This document shows positions 14,976 through 24,860 of a stretch of 24,860 nt of DNA, piece by piece (the stretch's first letter is position 1; each line of letters begins with the position of its first letter). Source of the stretch: a virus. Below the pieces are notes generated by a model. That model was not told the DNA's origin. It did no database searches and saw only the letters and a program-made list of their open reading frames with translations. The stretch spans positions 1-24,860 of the IMG/VR virus record IMGVR_UViG_3300007538_000167. One strand, given 5' to 3'. Made by a program: the position numbers and the translations under genes.

Positions 14976-15206
14976 TTGAGCGACCAGGTTAACCACCCAG
15001 ATCATTATACAAAAGGAGGAATTGAATGTATCCAAGCCATGGAAGCAGCGATGTCTCCAGAGGCTTTTCGGGGTTACTGTAAAGGAAATGTGCTCAAGTA
15101 TCTGTGGCGGTACGAATCGAAAGGTAGTACCGTTCAAGATTTATTAAAAGCTCAGTGGTATTTAGAACGTCTAATCAGAATAGAAACAGATAAAGTTGAC
15201 TCATAA
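14976..15206 (+). CDS. DUF3310-type small protein, TTG start, 76 aa
   Basis: The protein reads MSDQVNHPDHYTKGGIECIQAMEAAM, then FRGYCKGNVLKYLWRYESKGSTVQDLLKAQWYLERL. The NHPDHY-x-x-GGIE-x-I and GN-x-x-KY-x-WR-x-x-(x)K-G elements define the DUF3310 family, common in phages and sometimes labelled nucleotide kinase without strong proof. No ATG is in frame near the motif, and TTG at 14976 is the only start that keeps NHPDHY. It overlaps the end of the convergent 15201 gene by 6 bases. Probably acts in nucleotide or DNA metabolism (inference from family company). Confidence 0.8.
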   Translation: MSDQVNHPDHYTKGGIECIQAMEAAMSPEAFRGYCKGNVLKYLWRYESKGSTVQDLLKAQWYLERLIRIETDKVDS

Positions 15207-16055
15207 AAGTTCTCTTTGATTCTTATACTGCTCTTCAAATTTCTGAATACATGCAGCCTCTTCCTGAGCACGAAGCCACTCAGCCTCCTGGAGTTCCAAC
15301 TCTTTCTCCAGAGGAATTTGACTGCTTACGAATCTTAGAGTTTCTAGATCTTTTAGATCAGCTTCAAGGAAAGCAGACCGCGATCCCATACAAGTCGGAC
15401 GCTCCGTCCACAAAGTAAAAAATTTATCAACAACTTTACCTGATGGGTCGTATTTAAGTAGTTCTTTCTCCAGGTATTCAATAGCTTTCACCTGCTGAGG
15501 TGAGCCATTAAATGTCGTAGCAATATTAAGAAGGCAGCGATCTAACTTACATTTATGCTCAACTAAAAGAGAAACTTCTTTATCAACATCAAGAAAGACA
15601 TCAAGTTCTGCTCTTCTCCTGGCGACTAATCCTGGATTACTAAGGTAATTCTTCCTAAGAAAAGGCGACCATTCTCGTATAATTTCAGAACGCCTGGCGC
15701 CAGTATTAATTAATTCAAGTAGTTTGCATACTTTGAATTGAACAAAGCCAATGCTATGTGCATAACTAAGAACAGCAGCTTTCTTCTTTTCATTTAATGG
15801 TATGTAAACTACATCGTCTACATACTGTGCAAACAATTCTAGATCTTCTCTTAACTGTTGATCAACAACTTCTCTACTTACTCTTAAGTTTGCAAGAATC
15901 CCTTTTCCTTTTAAGCGGATGCTTCCATAACCAATGGCATATAATCCGTCTCTCTCATTTACTTTATAAGATGCGTATTCTTCAAAACCAGTATGAATCC
16001 TGCACGGTGTGTAGCGCCGTACCAATTCATATCCCAGCTCAGTAAAAAATGACAA
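15201..16055 (-). CDS. divergent lysozyme-fold (GH24-like) protein, 284 aa
   Basis: Residues 22-160 follow the T4-type lysozyme pattern: GFEEYASYKVNERDGLYAIGYGSI, then REDLELFAQYVDDVVYIPLNEKKKAAVLSYAHSIG and GLVARRRAELDVFL. Aligned without gaps to the endolysin at 18913, the catalytic Glu is kept (Glu 25) and the second residue is Glu 34. The catalytic Thr is Ala 40 and the Gly-His becomes Gly-Ser. The last 120 residues are helical, with a Glu-rich coiled coil. The start is TTG at 16055 after a hairpin. It may be a structural or virion-associated lysozyme relative rather than the lysis enzyme. The fold call is by motif. Confidence 0.65.
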   Translation of the reverse strand: MSFFTELGYELVRRYTPCRIHTGFEEYASYKVNERDGLYAIGYGSIRLKGKGILANLRVSREVVDQQLREDLELFAQYVDDVVYIPLNEKKKAAVLSYAHSIGFVQFKVCKLLELINTGARRSEIIREWSPFLRKNYLSNPGLVARRRAELDVFLDVDKEVSLLVEHKCKLDRCLLNIATTFNGSPQQVKAIEYLEKELLKYDPSGKVVDKFFTLWTERPTCMGSRSAFLEADLKDLETLRFVSSQIPLEKELELQEAEWLRAQEEAACIQKFEEQYKNQRELL

Positions 16056-16469: not shown

Positions 16470-16691
16470 TCAGCTAATTTGGTTTTGAGTTTGAAACTGG
16501 AATGAGATGTCGGCATCAATACCGTGTTCCTTGAGAATGCTTAAGAACATTTGTCGATCCATCATTTTCATGTGGAGCATATCAACAAAAGCTTCTTCTA
16601 GCTCATCACGGTCAAGGTCTTTGATTGCCAGAGCTGCTGCATGGATAGCAAATTCACTGTCCATGGGCAGATCCAAGGCATTGGCATCCAT
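16470..16691 (-). CDS. nblA: NblA-like phycobilisome degradation adaptor, 73 aa
   Basis: The ATG at 16691 is chosen over a TTG 15 bases upstream. The protein begins MDANALDLPMDSEFAIHAAA and continues LAIKDLDRDELEEAFVDMLH, then MKMMDRQMFLSILKEHGI. Against cyanobacterial NblA as I recall it (L-T-x-E-Q-E-F near the start, M-S-R-E-Q in the middle, then E-L-Y-R-Q-M-M-V-R-E-N-M-Y), the EF, the loop with D-R-D-E-L, the ML-x-x-K-M-M-x-R-x-M-F stretch and helix lengths all match. NblA dimers bring phycobiliproteins to Clp protease, and phage copies are known in freshwater and marine cyanophages. Here it lies in the late minus operon, after the Dps-like gene. Divergent enough that function needs proof. 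Confidence 0.7.
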   Translation of the reverse strand: MDANALDLPMDSEFAIHAAALAIKDLDRDELEEAFVDMLHMKMMDRQMFLSILKEHGIDADISFQFQTQNQIS

Positions 16692-16745
16692 TGAAAAACT
16701 TACCAATCCGTGTCTACATCCTAACAGCTCTGCAATTTTTGGCTA

Positions 16746-16949
16746 CTAGGCCATTGCAGTTTGGATGCCAGGTGGGATGTATCGCTGATCAACAGCGAAA
16801 TGAGGCTTATCTTCAGCGCCTTCAAAAATACCGGGAGCGACTTGAGGTAAGCGTGCGCTCACGTACTGATTTAAAAAGGAGTTCGTGTCTGGCGTTTCCA
16901 TGGAGAATAGTGTTGCTAAGAGTAGTAATACCGAAATAGACGCTAACAA
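16746..16949 (-). CDS. membrane-anchored small protein with FLxxY segment, 67 aa
   Basis: The minus frame from TTG at 16949 gives MLASISVLLLLATLFS, a hydrophobic stretch like a membrane anchor or signal segment, then METPDTNSFLNQYVSARLPQVAPGIFEGAEDKPHFAVDQRYIPPGIQ. An ATG at 16901 would skip the anchor. The part after the anchor resembles the FLxxY segments of the 7525 and 14647 proteins. Another minus frame, ATG at 16971 (2 bases after the Dps stop) to 16822, also encodes a hydrophobic start (MLTLILVFVSVYFGITTLSN), so which frame is used is open. No family is recognised. Confidence 0.45.
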   Translation of the reverse strand: MLASISVLLLLATLFSMETPDTNSFLNQYVSARLPQVAPGIFEGAEDKPHFAVDQRYIPPGIQTAMA

Positions 16950-16973: not shown

Positions 16974-17432
16974 CTAGCCCAGATTAGATTTGAGCAGCCA
17001 CTGAAACTTTTTGTGCGCCCGCCCACGTTCTATAGCTAAGTCTAAAGTCAACTGATCTTTCATGGCTTCTGCTTCTTCTGCCAGAAGGTTAAAAGATTCT
17101 GCAAGTGTATTATTGTTTACCGCCAGGGTACGAATCATCCCGTCTTGATCAAAGCAGTTTGTTGGAACTTCTTCAATCATGGAGTGGTTTAGATCTTCAA
17201 CGCTTAGTGGAGTACTAATATCAAGAGAGCGGATGTGTTCTGCAATAACATCCAAACCATCCTGTAGTTCCTCATAGATCTCTTGAGTAAGCTTATGGAT
17301 AGAATAAAACTTGCTGCCCATCAGATTCCAATGAACAATATAAGTTTGATTCAGCAGATAAGAAGTATCACGCAGCAGCTGCACCAGATGGCAGTAACAA
17401 GCTGACTTGGGATCCATTTTTACTTTAGCCAT
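16974..17432 (-). CDS. dps: Dps-like ferritin (DNA protection in starvation), 152 aa
   Basis: The ATG at 17432 lies 2 bases after the upstream stop; a GTG 9 bases earlier is possible. The core reads YIVHWNLMGSKFYSIHKLTQ then EIYEELQDGLDVIAEHI. With this start, His 34, His 46, Asp 61 and Glu 65 have the same spacing as the E. coli Dps ferroxidase residues His 51, His 63, Asp 78 and Glu 82. The Trp after the first His is kept, and Asp 67 of E. coli is a Gln. Length fits a Dps four-helix bundle. Dps dodecamers oxidise and store iron with peroxide and can coat DNA. The Lys-containing start (MAKVKMDPK) is short. Phage role, protection against oxidative damage or use of iron, is inference. Confidence 0.85.
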   Translation of the reverse strand: MAKVKMDPKSACYCHLVQLLRDTSYLLNQTYIVHWNLMGSKFYSIHKLTQEIYEELQDGLDVIAEHIRSLDISTPLSVEDLNHSMIEEVPTNCFDQDGMIRTLAVNNNTLAESFNLLAEEAEAMKDQLTLDLAIERGRAHKKFQWLLKSNLG

Positions 17433-17434
17433 TT

Positions 17435-17722
17435 TTACCACTTAACTTTGTGACTCCAGTAGCGAGCTGACATCTTATCCGGATTAGGATCTTGGGCGTT
17501 ATGTCTAGCATAGTATGACTTTTTACGCGCTTTATCTTTCTCTGTTGTTGGATTCTTTCCAGCTCCTTTAACTCCTTGTTGACCGAAACGTACAATCTTT
17601 TCTTTACCTCCTTCACAAGCTTTGACTACATGTGACTTGGTGGGGTGCCCTGGAGTGCGCTGCGGTTTATTGCACTTCATGTGCTCTTTAGCTAACCGCT
17701 TAGCCTTCGCGTGATCTGCCAT
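17435..17722 (-). CDS. conserved basic protein of cyanophage type, 95 aa
   Basis: The protein is very basic: KCNKPQRTPGHPTKSHVVKACEGGKEKIVRFGQQGVKGAGKNPTTEKDKARKKSYYARHNAQD ... KMSARYWSHKVKW. The RFGQQGV-x-GAGKNP-x-T and (A/S)-x-YW-x-x-KVKW elements are ones I recall from a small protein present in many cyanophages. Function is not known. The charge suggests binding to DNA or RNA, and two Cys are present. The start overlaps the stop of the upstream 58-residue gene by one base (TAATG), and its stop is 2 bases before the Dps start. Confidence 0.75.
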   Translation of the reverse strand: MADHAKAKRLAKEHMKCNKPQRTPGHPTKSHVVKACEGGKEKIVRFGQQGVKGAGKNPTTEKDKARKKSYYARHNAQDPNPDKMSARYWSHKVKW

Positions 17723-17898
17723 TACATGTAACCCAGCTTCTCAGGAGAAACGGTTTGATCGACCTGGCCTAAAACTGTTTTAGGAAAAGGATACGGCCAG
17801 CGCTCATCACGCGCTTCGCGCGTGACTTCATCTGGCTGAAGACGCTTCCGCTCAATAAAATCATCTAAGAATTCTTTATTAGGATTCTCATCCATCAT
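17722..17898 (-). CDS. small hypothetical protein, 58 aa
   Basis: Minus-strand ATG at 17898 (or 17895; ATGATGG) gives MMDENPNKEFLDDFIERKRL then QPDEVTREARDERWPYPFPKTVLGQVDQ and a short end. Its start overlaps the HNH stop (ATGA) and its stop overlaps the start of the next gene, a tight fit that supports a real gene. The N-terminus is a charged helix, the middle has a WPYPFP turn, and the end is extended. No known family. It has a FLDDFIERK segment loosely like the FLxxY segments of three other small minus-strand proteins. Confidence 0.6.
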   Translation of the reverse strand: MMDENPNKEFLDDFIERKRLQPDEVTREARDERWPYPFPKTVLGQVDQTVSPEKLGYM

Positions 17899-18272
17899 GC
17901 TGTAATAGCCGATTCAAGAGCGGTAGAAAGATAGATTGTTTGTGGCTTCTGTTCTAACCACTGCTTAATTCTACTAACCCTTTCCTCTGAGTACAAGGGG
18001 TGTCCTTCTTTTAACCAATCAAAAGGTAAAGTACTGGACTTAGATTTATTGCAAGAGTTACAGCAACATGCCAAATTATTTCTTGTATTGTGTCCACCTT
18101 TATGCTTAGGAACAATGTGATCTATGGTTGCAGTGCGATCACAAAGCTGTTTTTCACAGTAAGCACACTTCCATTCCCAAGCTTCAAAGATTGATTCCCG
18201 AAACTTCTTCCTTGCTGATTTAGGACTTAAAACAATGAGGTTCGCCAGGAGATCGTTCTCACTGTGAAACAT
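17895..18272 (-). CDS. HNH endonuclease, 125 aa
   Basis: WKCAYCEKQLCDRTATIDHIVPKHKGGHNTRNNLACCCNSCNKSKS is a textbook HNH motif. The first zinc pair is C36-x2-C39, Asp-His at 51-52 starts the catalytic centre (DHIVPKHKGG), Asn 66 lies in the NL turn, and the second pair is C71-x2-C74 in CNSCNKSK. Such genes are common in cyanophages as free-standing nucleases, sometimes mobile and sometimes linked to packaging. It lies next to the tRNA-Leu gene and starts a minus run (17895 to the small gene, the basic protein and Dps). Homing or packaging role is not decided by the sequence. Confidence 0.85.
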   Translation of the reverse strand: MFHSENDLLANLIVLSPKSARKKFRESIFEAWEWKCAYCEKQLCDRTATIDHIVPKHKGGHNTRNNLACCCNSCNKSKSSTLPFDWLKEGHPLYSEERVSRIKQWLEQKPQTIYLSTALESAITA

Positions 18273-18343: not shown

Positions 18344-18426
18344 GGGAGCGTGGCGGAATTGGTATGCGCTGCGGACTTAAAATCCGCTGGTCCTTGACCT
18401 TGTGGGTTCGAGTCCCACCGCTCCTA
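18344..18426 (+). tRNA. tRNA-Leu (anticodon UAA)
   Basis: Acceptor GGGAGCG (18344-18350) pairs with CGCTCCT (18419-18425), with one G-T pair. The D arm is GCG ... CGC. The anticodon stem GCGGA/TCCGC has loop CTTAAAA (anticodon TAA). There is a long variable arm typical of tRNA-Leu, and the T arm is GTGGG-TTCGAGT-CCCAC. The discriminator base is A, and no CCA is encoded. It is uninterrupted. It runs against the surrounding minus operon and abuts the stop of the 18427 gene. A weak promoter-like TTTACA-N16-TAGGGT lies at 18279-18306. Confidence 0.9.
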
Positions 18427-18666
18427 TTAATCAGTTAAACCAATCTCTTCTAGAAAAAAGTCTGTTTCCAGGTCGGCTGGATCGTAGTTGGCATCTTCCA
18501 GCAGTTTCAAAAGGAAGTAATGCACCCTTTCCTGTACCCACTTGAGGTCATCGTCTGATACATCACAGACAATGGCATCAAGACGGAGTTCACGAGATGG
18601 CTCACGGATGTGGTCTGCAAGCAGCTCCAATGCCCGATAACGTCCTTTCGTGAACTCCCCAAGCAT
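18427..18666 (-). CDS. hypothetical acidic helical protein, 79 aa
   Basis: MLGEFTKGRYRALELLADHIREPSRELRLDAIVCDVSDDDLKW and on to a strongly acidic C-terminus (DANYDPADLETDFFLEEIGLTD). The pattern is helix, Asp-rich turn, helix. No motif is recognised. The start overlaps the stop of the 18666 gene by one base (TGATG), so the two are likely co-translated. The stop is next to the convergent tRNA-Leu with no space for a separate terminator. Confidence 0.6.
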   Translation of the reverse strand: MLGEFTKGRYRALELLADHIREPSRELRLDAIVCDVSDDDLKWVQERVHYFLLKLLEDANYDPADLETDFFLEEIGLTD

Positions 18667-18912: not shown

Positions 18913-20151
18913 CTACTGCAAATCTAACCACCAGCCACTGCCAGAGCCTTCAACGGTCCAGCGTTTTTCCATAAAATATTCGGTGTAGACAACTGCATTA
19001 CCGTTCGTACTTTCGTAGGTGCCGGTGTAGTTATCCAGTTTGCCCCAGGGATCGTGAACTGTGTATTTAGCTGGGTCAGTGTGATAGCCGATAGCGCAGA
19101 TCCAATGCCCAAAACCACTGGGATTACCACCTGGTCCCTTATGGAGGATACCAATTGGAACAGGAATGTTGGCATCAAGCCTCTTCTTAAGAAAAAGAAG
19201 TGTTCCATCCTGCCTAAATTTAGCTTTAATACCCAGGCTATTCAAGACCTTAACATGTACGTTGGGGTTAGTGGTATCTCCAATAGCAAAGACTTTTTGG
19301 ATGTATTCATTGTCATTTTTAATGCACCCTGGCCTCATGTACATTGCAGCCATCGCACAGCTGGAGGAGAAGCAGGTGCGGCTTGCGTCTCGATAGTTAT
19401 CCCGTTGCGACTGGTACGGAACATCTAGCATAACACCATCGTAAAAGACTGCTGGAGTCTTTACGGGTTGAGGATGTGGACCACCAAGACCAGACCAATG
19501 CTGATCAAAGACCCACCAAACACCTGCACCCCAGGGGAGGTTAATCTGCGTGTGACCATTTTTCTTTTGTAGAACTTCAACATCACGATAGGTTCGGTTG
19601 CCTTTAATGATTACTTTTTGATCACGCTCTAGTTTTGTACTGTCAACCGGTTCTTTCTTTAGGGCGGTTGAACGACTTGAGGTAATAGTAATCTTTTGCT
19701 TGGGTTTAATTTCTTTACCAGAGATAAACAATTCGACTTCTTTCTTACGACGTGCAACTAAACCAGGTAGTGTTTTATCACCGGCCTTAACCCACTTAGG
19801 TAACTCTTCTTGAGCCACTTTATTAGGATCTTCTCCTTTATTAAGACGCTTCCTTAAGGTCGATTCTTTAAGTGCACCTATCCCACAGTTATGAGTAAAG
19901 GATACAAGAGCATCAAACTGAGGTTGATTTAGAGGAACAGTGATATGAATGTTGACTGCATCTTCAAATCTTTTCAAATCACCAAGAAGTAGCTGCTCTG
20001 CTTTCTCTTCAGTGATGGTTTTATCTGGCGTCACATCATCACCAGTATGTCCCCAGCCAATGGTCCAGACTCCTGCAGGACACTTATAGGCAGTGAGTTC
20101 TAACCCTTCAAAGGTTTTAATGAGATCTAAACCAGCTTTAGAAATTTTCAC
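18913..20151 (-). CDS. bimodular endolysin: GH24 lysozyme plus C39-like peptidase, 412 aa
   Basis: Residues 1-145 are a T4/P22-type lysozyme with the triad spacing Glu 15, Cys 24, Thr 30 (E-x8-C-x5-T) in TFEGLELTAYKCPAGVWTIG, and GLVARRKKEVELF at the end. Residues about 168-222 are beta-rich with three Trp (GAGVWWVFDQHW), perhaps SH3-like wall binding. Residues about 243-412 look like a C39-type papain-like peptidase: Cys 260 in RTCFSSSCAM, His 349 in GFGHWICAIGY, Asp 367 in VHDPWG. Two cleavage specificities, sugar and peptide, in one protein. Start is GTG at 20151. The holin-like gene precedes it by 36 bases. No signal peptide is visible. Confidence 0.85.
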   Translation of the reverse strand: MKISKAGLDLIKTFEGLELTAYKCPAGVWTIGWGHTGDDVTPDKTITEEKAEQLLLGDLKRFEDAVNIHITVPLNQPQFDALVSFTHNCGIGALKESTLRKRLNKGEDPNKVAQEELPKWVKAGDKTLPGLVARRKKEVELFISGKEIKPKQKITITSSRSTALKKEPVDSTKLERDQKVIIKGNRTYRDVEVLQKKNGHTQINLPWGAGVWWVFDQHWSGLGGPHPQPVKTPAVFYDGVMLDVPYQSQRDNYRDASRTCFSSSCAMAAMYMRPGCIKNDNEYIQKVFAIGDTTNPNVHVKVLNSLGIKAKFRQDGTLLFLKKRLDANIPVPIGILHKGPGGNPSGFGHWICAIGYHTDPAKYTVHDPWGKLDNYTGTYESTNGNAVVYTEYFMEKRWTVEGSGSGWWLDLQ

Positions 20152-23952: not shown

Positions 23953-24860
23953 CTACTGCGTCACGCCGTTGAGGACGATGATCCAGCCGCGAGACTTGAG
24001 AGTGCTTACTGCTGAGCTGATGCTTGGCGTGCCGCTACTGGCGTTGTAGTCGATGGTAATCTCTTTGTTGCCGCTGCTGGGCGCAGATCTGCCGGATGTG
24101 GCGATGCTGTTGAGGATATTCTCTACGCTCGTAGCAGACAGCGAAGTACAGCCAGACCAAGCAAAATAAAAACAGCTAGCACCCGGTGTTGCGGTCCAGT
24201 TATCAAAGAAACTAGCAGGGAAGCTCACTAGGCTTGTACAGCCATACCAAGCAAAAGAAAAGGTAGTAGCGCTGTTTGCCCCCAAAAGTGGAAAGCTTGT
24301 TAGTCCTGTACAGCTAAACCAAGCTGCGTTTACGGCAGTTGCGCTTGACATATTAAGCGCGGGAAAGCTCGTAAGCCCTGAGCAGCCTTGCCAAGTACCA
24401 GCAAAACTGGTTCCGCTAGATACATCAAGCAACGGGAAACTGGTAAGACCTGAGCAGTCGCGCCAAGCGCTTGCAAAGGTGGTTCCACTGGATGTATCAA
24501 GCAACGGGAAACCGGTGAGACTTGTGCAGTTGCGCCAGGTAGTAGTAAAATTCGTGCCACTAGATACATCAATCAAGGGAAAGCTGGTAAGCCCTGTGCA
24601 ATTTTGCCAAGCGCCCGTAAAATCAGTTCCACTAGACGTAGTAATCAGCGGAAAACTGGTAAGACTTGTGCAATTTTGCCAAGTGCCAATAAATGAAGTG
24701 CCTCCAGATGTATCTAGCAAAGGAAAGCTGGCAAGGTTTGTGCAATAAAGCCAAGTACTAAAATAATTCGTAACTGCTGAGGTATCCATGTTCGCCGACA
24801 CCGAAGACAGCGAAAATAAAGCATAAAATGCCTGGCTAAGGTTTGTACCAAAGGACCACC
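23953..24860 (-). CDS. BspA-like leucine-rich repeat protein (5' end beyond window)
   Basis: The frame is open through the right edge, so the real start is outside and the protein is longer than the 302 residues seen. It consists of 24-residue units, for example NCTSLTSFPLITTSSGTDFT, each with C-T/S-G/S-L-T-S-F-P-L-L, a Ser/Thr/Gly turn, F, then W and (N/G)C. At least eight units are present, the last divergent, followed by a C-terminal cap (SATSVENILNSIATSG ... STLKSRGWIIVLNGVTQ). This is the BspA/DUF285-type leucine-rich repeat, known in surface and adhesion proteins. In a phage tail cluster it suggests a host-receptor binding protein (inference). Confidence 0.7.
   Translation of the reverse strand, partial: WSFGTNLSQAFYALFSLSSVSANMDTSAVTNYFSTWLYCTNLASFPLLDTSGGTSFIGTWQNCTSLTSFPLITTSSGTDFTGAWQNCTGLTSFPLIDVSSGTNFTTTWRNCTSLTGFPLLDTSSGTTFASAWRDCSGLTSFPLLDVSSGTSFAGTWQGCSGLTSFPALNMSSATAVNAAWFSCTGLTSFPLLGANSATTFSFAWYGCTSLVSFPASFFDNWTATPGASCFYFAWSGCTSLSATSVENILNSIATSGRSAPSSGNKEITIDYNASSGTPSISSAVSTLKSRGWIIVLNGVTQ
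24195..24860 (-). repeat. tandem 72-bp coding repeats
   Basis: The 24-residue repeat is also visible in DNA. Segments such as CTGGTAAGACTTGTGCAATT recur about every 72 bases with changes, especially 24360-24720. Close copies here are a likely hot spot for unequal recombination that changes repeat number. Confidence 0.7.

Follow-up and report, generated by a model that had tools for sequence, protein, structure and literature searches.

Dps proteins are cage proteins that lock up iron and prevent oxidative damage. In the Dps of E. coli, the arginine that follows the ferroxidase glutamate pairs with Asp67. Phage-borne versions of the family are already known from S-EIV1, S-SRM01 and phages of Lactobacillus and Bacteroides. 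The preliminary description of the DNA considered here had voiced doubt as to how widely such proteins had been reported; they are in fact well documented, and two cyanophage isolates are among the carriers, the Synechococcus phages S-SRM01 and S-EIV1, the latter from a high-arctic lake. DPS has been found in the Gratiaviridae and 36 other gut phage genomes, where it was proposed to act against oxidative stress (PMC8008677), and the same protection was proposed for a DNA-binding ferritin-like protein of Lactobacillus phages (PMC6669764). For freshwater phages, ferritin has been listed as one of the defences against reactive oxygen (PMC6802176). Phage infection can also induce the dps of the host: strong induction of host dps and catalase was reported in Yersinia ruckeri (PMC7354516). 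In our incomplete coverage of the literature, we found no paper discussing Dps in cyanophages by name.

The stretch of DNA that we analysed (the window) is a complete IMG/VR virus record of 24,860 bases, the genome itself being not necessarily complete. Its dps ORF (Table 1) opens with an ATG at 17432, and the product is matched by Pfam Ferritin (6.1e-13, above the gathering score), by PHROG_3636 (8.5e-24) and by the NCBIfam Dps model (1e-13, but under the equivalog cut-off). Many solved Dps proteins match it by sequence, and a profile comparison recovers the Pseudomonas Dps PA0962 (8ff9, 6e-18). The AlphaFold monomer (pLDDT 90) has helices at residues 8-36, 40-70, 78-81, 96-123 and 127-150, corresponding to four long helices, A-D, and a short BC helix, with the fifth helix absent. 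Its best structural match is the Thermosynechococcus Dps 2c41 (Z 21.1, rmsd 1.6 Å over 147 residues), and the top Foldseek matches are Dps or Dps-like. The Dps-like assignment made in the preliminary description is thus upheld by the family profiles, by the predicted fold of the monomer with its conserved ligands, and by trees in which the protein stays inside Dps. On its sequence family, predicted fold, four ligands and pore residues, the window protein is a member of the Dps family.

Table 1. Features of the window discussed in the text; residue counts refer to distinct full-length relatives
Feature	Position	Strand	Evidence or conservation
Endolysin, phage lysozyme and C39-like peptidase domain, upstream of the cassette	18913..20151	-	
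HNH endonuclease, conserved upstream neighbour	17895..18272	-	
Small basic protein, PHROG_7595, directly upstream of dps	17435..17722	-	
dps, Dps-type ferritin, 152 aa	16974..17432	-	Pfam, PHROG, profile and fold matches
His34 codon, predicted ferroxidase ligand	17331..17333	-	66/66
Trp35 codon, after His34	17328..17330	-	66/66
His46 codon, predicted ferroxidase ligand	17295..17297	-	66/66
Asp61 codon, predicted ferroxidase ligand from the partner subunit	17250..17252	-	66/66
Glu65 codon, predicted ligand	17238..17240	-	66/66
His66 codon, Arg in cellular Dps	17235..17237	-	66/66
Asp126 to Asp131, aligned with the acidic iron-entry pore	17040..17057	-	Asp126, Thr129 and Asp131 66/66
67-aa protein with hydrophobic N-terminus, possible holin-like or membrane protein, next downstream of dps	16746..16949	-	
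NblA-like protein (phycobilisome degradation family)	16470..16706	-	Sequence profiles
Phage lysozyme, downstream end of the cassette	15201..16055	-	Pfam Phage_lysozyme, 2.6e-14

The ferroxidase residues had been reported as His34, with a tryptophan after it, His46, Asp61 and Glu65, in the spacing of their E. coli counterparts (51, 63, 78, 82). All five are found where they were said to be, at a constant offset of 17, and all are invariant in the 66 distinct full-length relatives from which our residue counts are drawn. Equally invariant are Asp126, Thr129 and Asp131, which align with the same residues of the three-fold pore in cellular Dps. The surroundings of the site are less conventional. 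In every relative the ferroxidase Glu is followed by His66, as against Arg in 51 of 53 aligned cellular Dps, and position 50, which we take to be the Asp67 ligand position of E. coli Dps, is Gln in 35 relatives, the window protein among them, Glu in 29 and Lys in 2. The cellular Dps of the comparison likewise vary here (Glu, Met, Asp or Gln), so that the position is not decisive for membership of the family. Together, however, the Gln, Glu or Lys at position 50 and the replacement of the usual Arg by His66 suggest that the metal preference or rate of this Dps may differ from the usual. Two cysteines further distinguish the family: Cys12 (66/66) and Cys93 (64/66) occupy positions that nearly always lack cysteine in the cellular Dps compared. 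About one fifth of the family members end in short Cys-containing tails, and those of L013, L025, L029 and L041 have Cys-rich C-termini (DCTCQHSS, PCGCDH, DCNC) that are possible metal or thiol sites.

These peculiarities raise the alternative of a cage with altered metal or redox chemistry, in which His66 and the variable position 50 would rebuild the dinuclear site and Cys12, with Cys93, would add a thiol function, iron storage being no longer the main activity. Such a shift would be in keeping with the complete (His66, Cys12) or near-complete (Cys93) fixation of three residues that almost no cellular Dps compared possesses, and with the loss of the Arg in two other cyanophage Dps types. We nevertheless regard it as very improbable, given that the protein retains the acidic pore residues and every one of the four canonical ligands, as needed for iron uptake.

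Two scans of viral contigs yielded 54 and 101 encoded Dps relatives, the two sets largely overlapping; among the matches listed, identity ranges from 58 to 100%, and the relatives, more than 100 in all, were found in viral contigs only. Against relatives with unsaturated dS, dN/dS is 0.04-0.06, synonymous sites being near saturation overall. Purifying selection and residue invariance together rule out a chance ORF or a decayed copy; the former is further excluded by the Ferritin and PHROG_3636 matches and by the five residues that 66 homologues keep. We regard the gene as real and well conserved, and as probably functional. A narrow search of 84,980 species genomes with two conserved peptide patterns recovered no close relative. 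In 386 cyanobacterial genomes the best profile matches are ordinary Dps, with about 36-38% identity at best; on plasmids, Rhodobacteraceae Dps come closest (35-37% identity). A first tree recovers the phage family as one clade (support 100/100), long-stemmed and placed outside the sampled cyanobacterial Dps, while a denser tree including S-EIV1-type proteins supports the family at only 65/86, with long-branch warnings. Recent capture from a cyanobacterial host is not supported, as the narrow pattern search found no close cellular relative, the best cyanobacterial match reaches only 36-38% and the clade falls outside cyanobacterial Dps. By these sequence comparisons, the family is a separate, phage-only branch of Dps that is not nested among the cyanobacterial versions.

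The preliminary description had assigned the gene to a late or lysis region, and it does lie between the endolysin and lysozyme genes, with tail genes beyond the lysis block. The order conserved in relatives is HNH nuclease, small basic protein, Dps, hydrophobic protein, NblA-like protein, a protein of unknown function and lysozyme. The small basic protein is 52% identical to its S-EIV1 homologue and adjoins dps in nearly all relatives. Very basic small proteins of PHROG_7595 are common to roseophages, HMO-2011 and S-EIV1. The profile of the NblA-like family matches NblA 3cs5 (1.7e-6), and Pfam NblA weakly matches 10 of 25 family members, the window member alone being below Pfam detection. As a fold comparison gave no match (with a model of pLDDT only 76), this assignment rests on sequence profiles. 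Relatives of the NblA-like protein are encoded in 331 viral stretches. The cassette is flanked by two lysozyme-family genes, the larger, upstream one having in addition a C39-like peptidase domain.

The site of dps is fixed. Among 80 loci fetched through the NblA-like family, dps is present in all 43 that include an upstream anchor, of which 11 lie on contigs absent from the listings of the Dps searches. Another 28 loci have no dps; as every one of them also lacks any upstream anchor, they are uninformative and should not be read as empty sites. The 20 longer relatives examined carry a single ferritin-family gene each. In many relatives, one to nearly ten kilobases separate dps from the gene for the hydrophobic protein, and the inserts checked as examples contain tail-fibre or virion-protein genes and a glycosyltransferase. 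The variable stretch (L031:10517-19815, L297:4742-9525, L078:5203-10552) also includes a match to 2OG-Fe(II) oxygenase or to an endonuclease V-like protein. A promoter scan detected sites no more numerous than in shuffled sequence. A tRNA-Leu gene (anticodon TAA; 18344-18426, plus strand) lies on the other strand from the late genes, flanked by the HNH gene and 18427-18666. Elsewhere in the window, 23953-24801 (minus strand) encodes repeated units around 'TSFPLLDTSSGTxFxxxWxxC', perhaps adhesin-like; the only two contigs found to have this protein are of the same phage (100% identity).

Late-region encoding and the tail-fibre or virion-protein cassettes inserted directly downstream of dps in many relatives might suggest that Dps is part of the virion, or is enclosed in its head or tail, where it would protect packaged DNA, deliver iron or act as a structural module. 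A viral structure library indeed contains Dps-like folds inside larger phage proteins, some of them annotated as prohead proteases. However, the window protein is free-standing, with 152 residues and the complete set of ferroxidase ligands, and no fusion or virion signal was seen in it, so that we consider a place in the virion unlikely.

Several lines of evidence bear on the identity of the virus. Across 98% of its length the window primase is 35% identical to that of S-EIV1, several more genes of the window have S-EIV1 matches, and 11 of 20 relatives carry on their contigs an S-EIV1-like terminase (52-68% identity). By sequence, these phages are a distant, deep branch of the lineage of Synechococcus phage S-EIV1. 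One relative (the 86-kb contig G015; L090:1402-2487) has psbA adjoining a primase gene, and the encoded D1 is about 94-95% identical to that of Prochlorococcus. The S-EIV1-like primase, the S-EIV1-like terminase of the relatives, the NblA-like gene and the psbA of this one relative make a cyanobacterial host very likely for the record.

Taking these observations together, we favour, with moderate confidence, the reading that a deep-branching cyanophage of the S-EIV1 lineage makes from this gene a functional Dps-type mini-ferritin, which removes iron and peroxide late in infection. By analogy with the Dps family, the subunits would assemble into a dodecamer, and Fe(II) would enter through acidic three-fold pores lined by Asp126, Thr129 and Asp131, to be oxidised at sites between two subunits formed by His34 and His46 of one and Asp61' and Glu65' of the other. 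H2O2 would be the preferred oxidant, and the iron would be stored as mineral. Presumably made together with the lysis and tail genes, Dps would most likely clear the dying photosynthetic cell of peroxide and free iron. Hydroxyl-radical damage would thereby be limited, both in phage DNA that has been replicated and packaged and in the remaining metabolism of the cell.

This mechanism does not assume direct DNA binding. The preliminary description had envisaged two uses for a Dps-like ferroxidase in a phototroph's phage, namely protection of replicating phage DNA and binding of released iron. The ferroxidase and its setting stand, on the predicted fold, the invariant ligands, the lineage of the primase and terminase, the NblA-like gene and psbA, and binding of released iron is plausible and agrees with the reading that we favour. 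Shielding of DNA lacks such support. PHROG_3636 is named a DNA binding protein, and the N-terminus has Lys3, Lys5 and Lys9, with lysines recurring in relatives, so that a protein that chiefly binds, compacts or shields DNA as E. coli Dps does, with iron handling secondary, has to be weighed. Yet only about 7 residues precede helix A, which begins at residue 8; the net charge of the protein is -8; and several solved Dps are without DNA binding, as the title of 1o9r states. The short tail and the acidity of the protein make it less likely that DNA is shielded by direct binding, and we judge a primarily DNA-binding role rather improbable.

These results show that dps has a fixed place and is under selection throughout a widespread lineage of cyanophages, as opposed to being a stray acquisition, and the control of iron and reactive oxygen in cyanophage infection thereby becomes testable. 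His66 and Cys12, together with two further cyanophage Dps families without the Arg, offer concrete residues for such tests.

Comparison with known systems places the family among several phage Dps types. S-EIV1 Dps (AHV82153) is 26% identical to the window protein, and the phages share a terminase lineage; its gene lies elsewhere in the genome, beside that for sulfate adenylyltransferase, and is absent at the site used in the window. In S-EIV1-type proteins (50 viral contigs, L393-L442) the four ferroxidase ligands are kept in 40 of 40 distinct proteins, as in the window family, whereas the Arg after Glu has given way to Phe at 66, Trp35 to Leu or Phe, and neither the acidic pore residues nor an acid at position 50 remain. 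A sister relationship of this type to the window family is not rejected (p-AU 0.167); the denser tree joins the two, with a long-branch flag. S-SRM01 Dps (QPX48251), from a phage of another family (Kyanoviridae), is 32% identical to the window protein. Its type, with at least 292 matching viral stretches (examined as L313-L392), keeps the ligands in 39 of 39 distinct proteins and shares with the window family a His after the ferroxidase Glu, but differs in having Gly at 50 and Ser/Asn in place of Asp126/Asp131. It is rejected as sister of the window family (p-AU 0.016), and with it a single origin of all cyanophage Dps. Since both of these widespread types have retained the four ligands and lost the acidic pore, iron storage need not be a shared function of cyanophage Dps. 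It is possible, though we put it forward as doubtful, that Dps was recruited by cyanophages on more than one occasion and that its ferroxidase surroundings were remodelled repeatedly, the Arg and a fixed acid at 50 being lost, so as to yield mini-ferritins of a virus-specific class, tuned to the peroxide- and iron-rich photosynthetic cell during lysis, alongside NblA-like breakdown of the antenna. The Dps of gut and Lactobacillus phages belong to phages of other hosts, and that of Lactobacillus phage LpeD groups with Lactiplantibacillus Dps, in contrast to the window family with its lack of a close cellular relative. Cellular Dps (2c41, 8ff9, cyanobacterial and Rhodobacteraceae versions) have the fold, ligands and pore in common with the window protein, at identities up to about 38%, and differ in having Arg at 66 and no Cys12. 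What is new in the present family, relative to all of these, is a separate phage-only branch with a fixed genomic place, changed ferroxidase surroundings (His66 and no fixed acid at 50) and an invariant Cys12.
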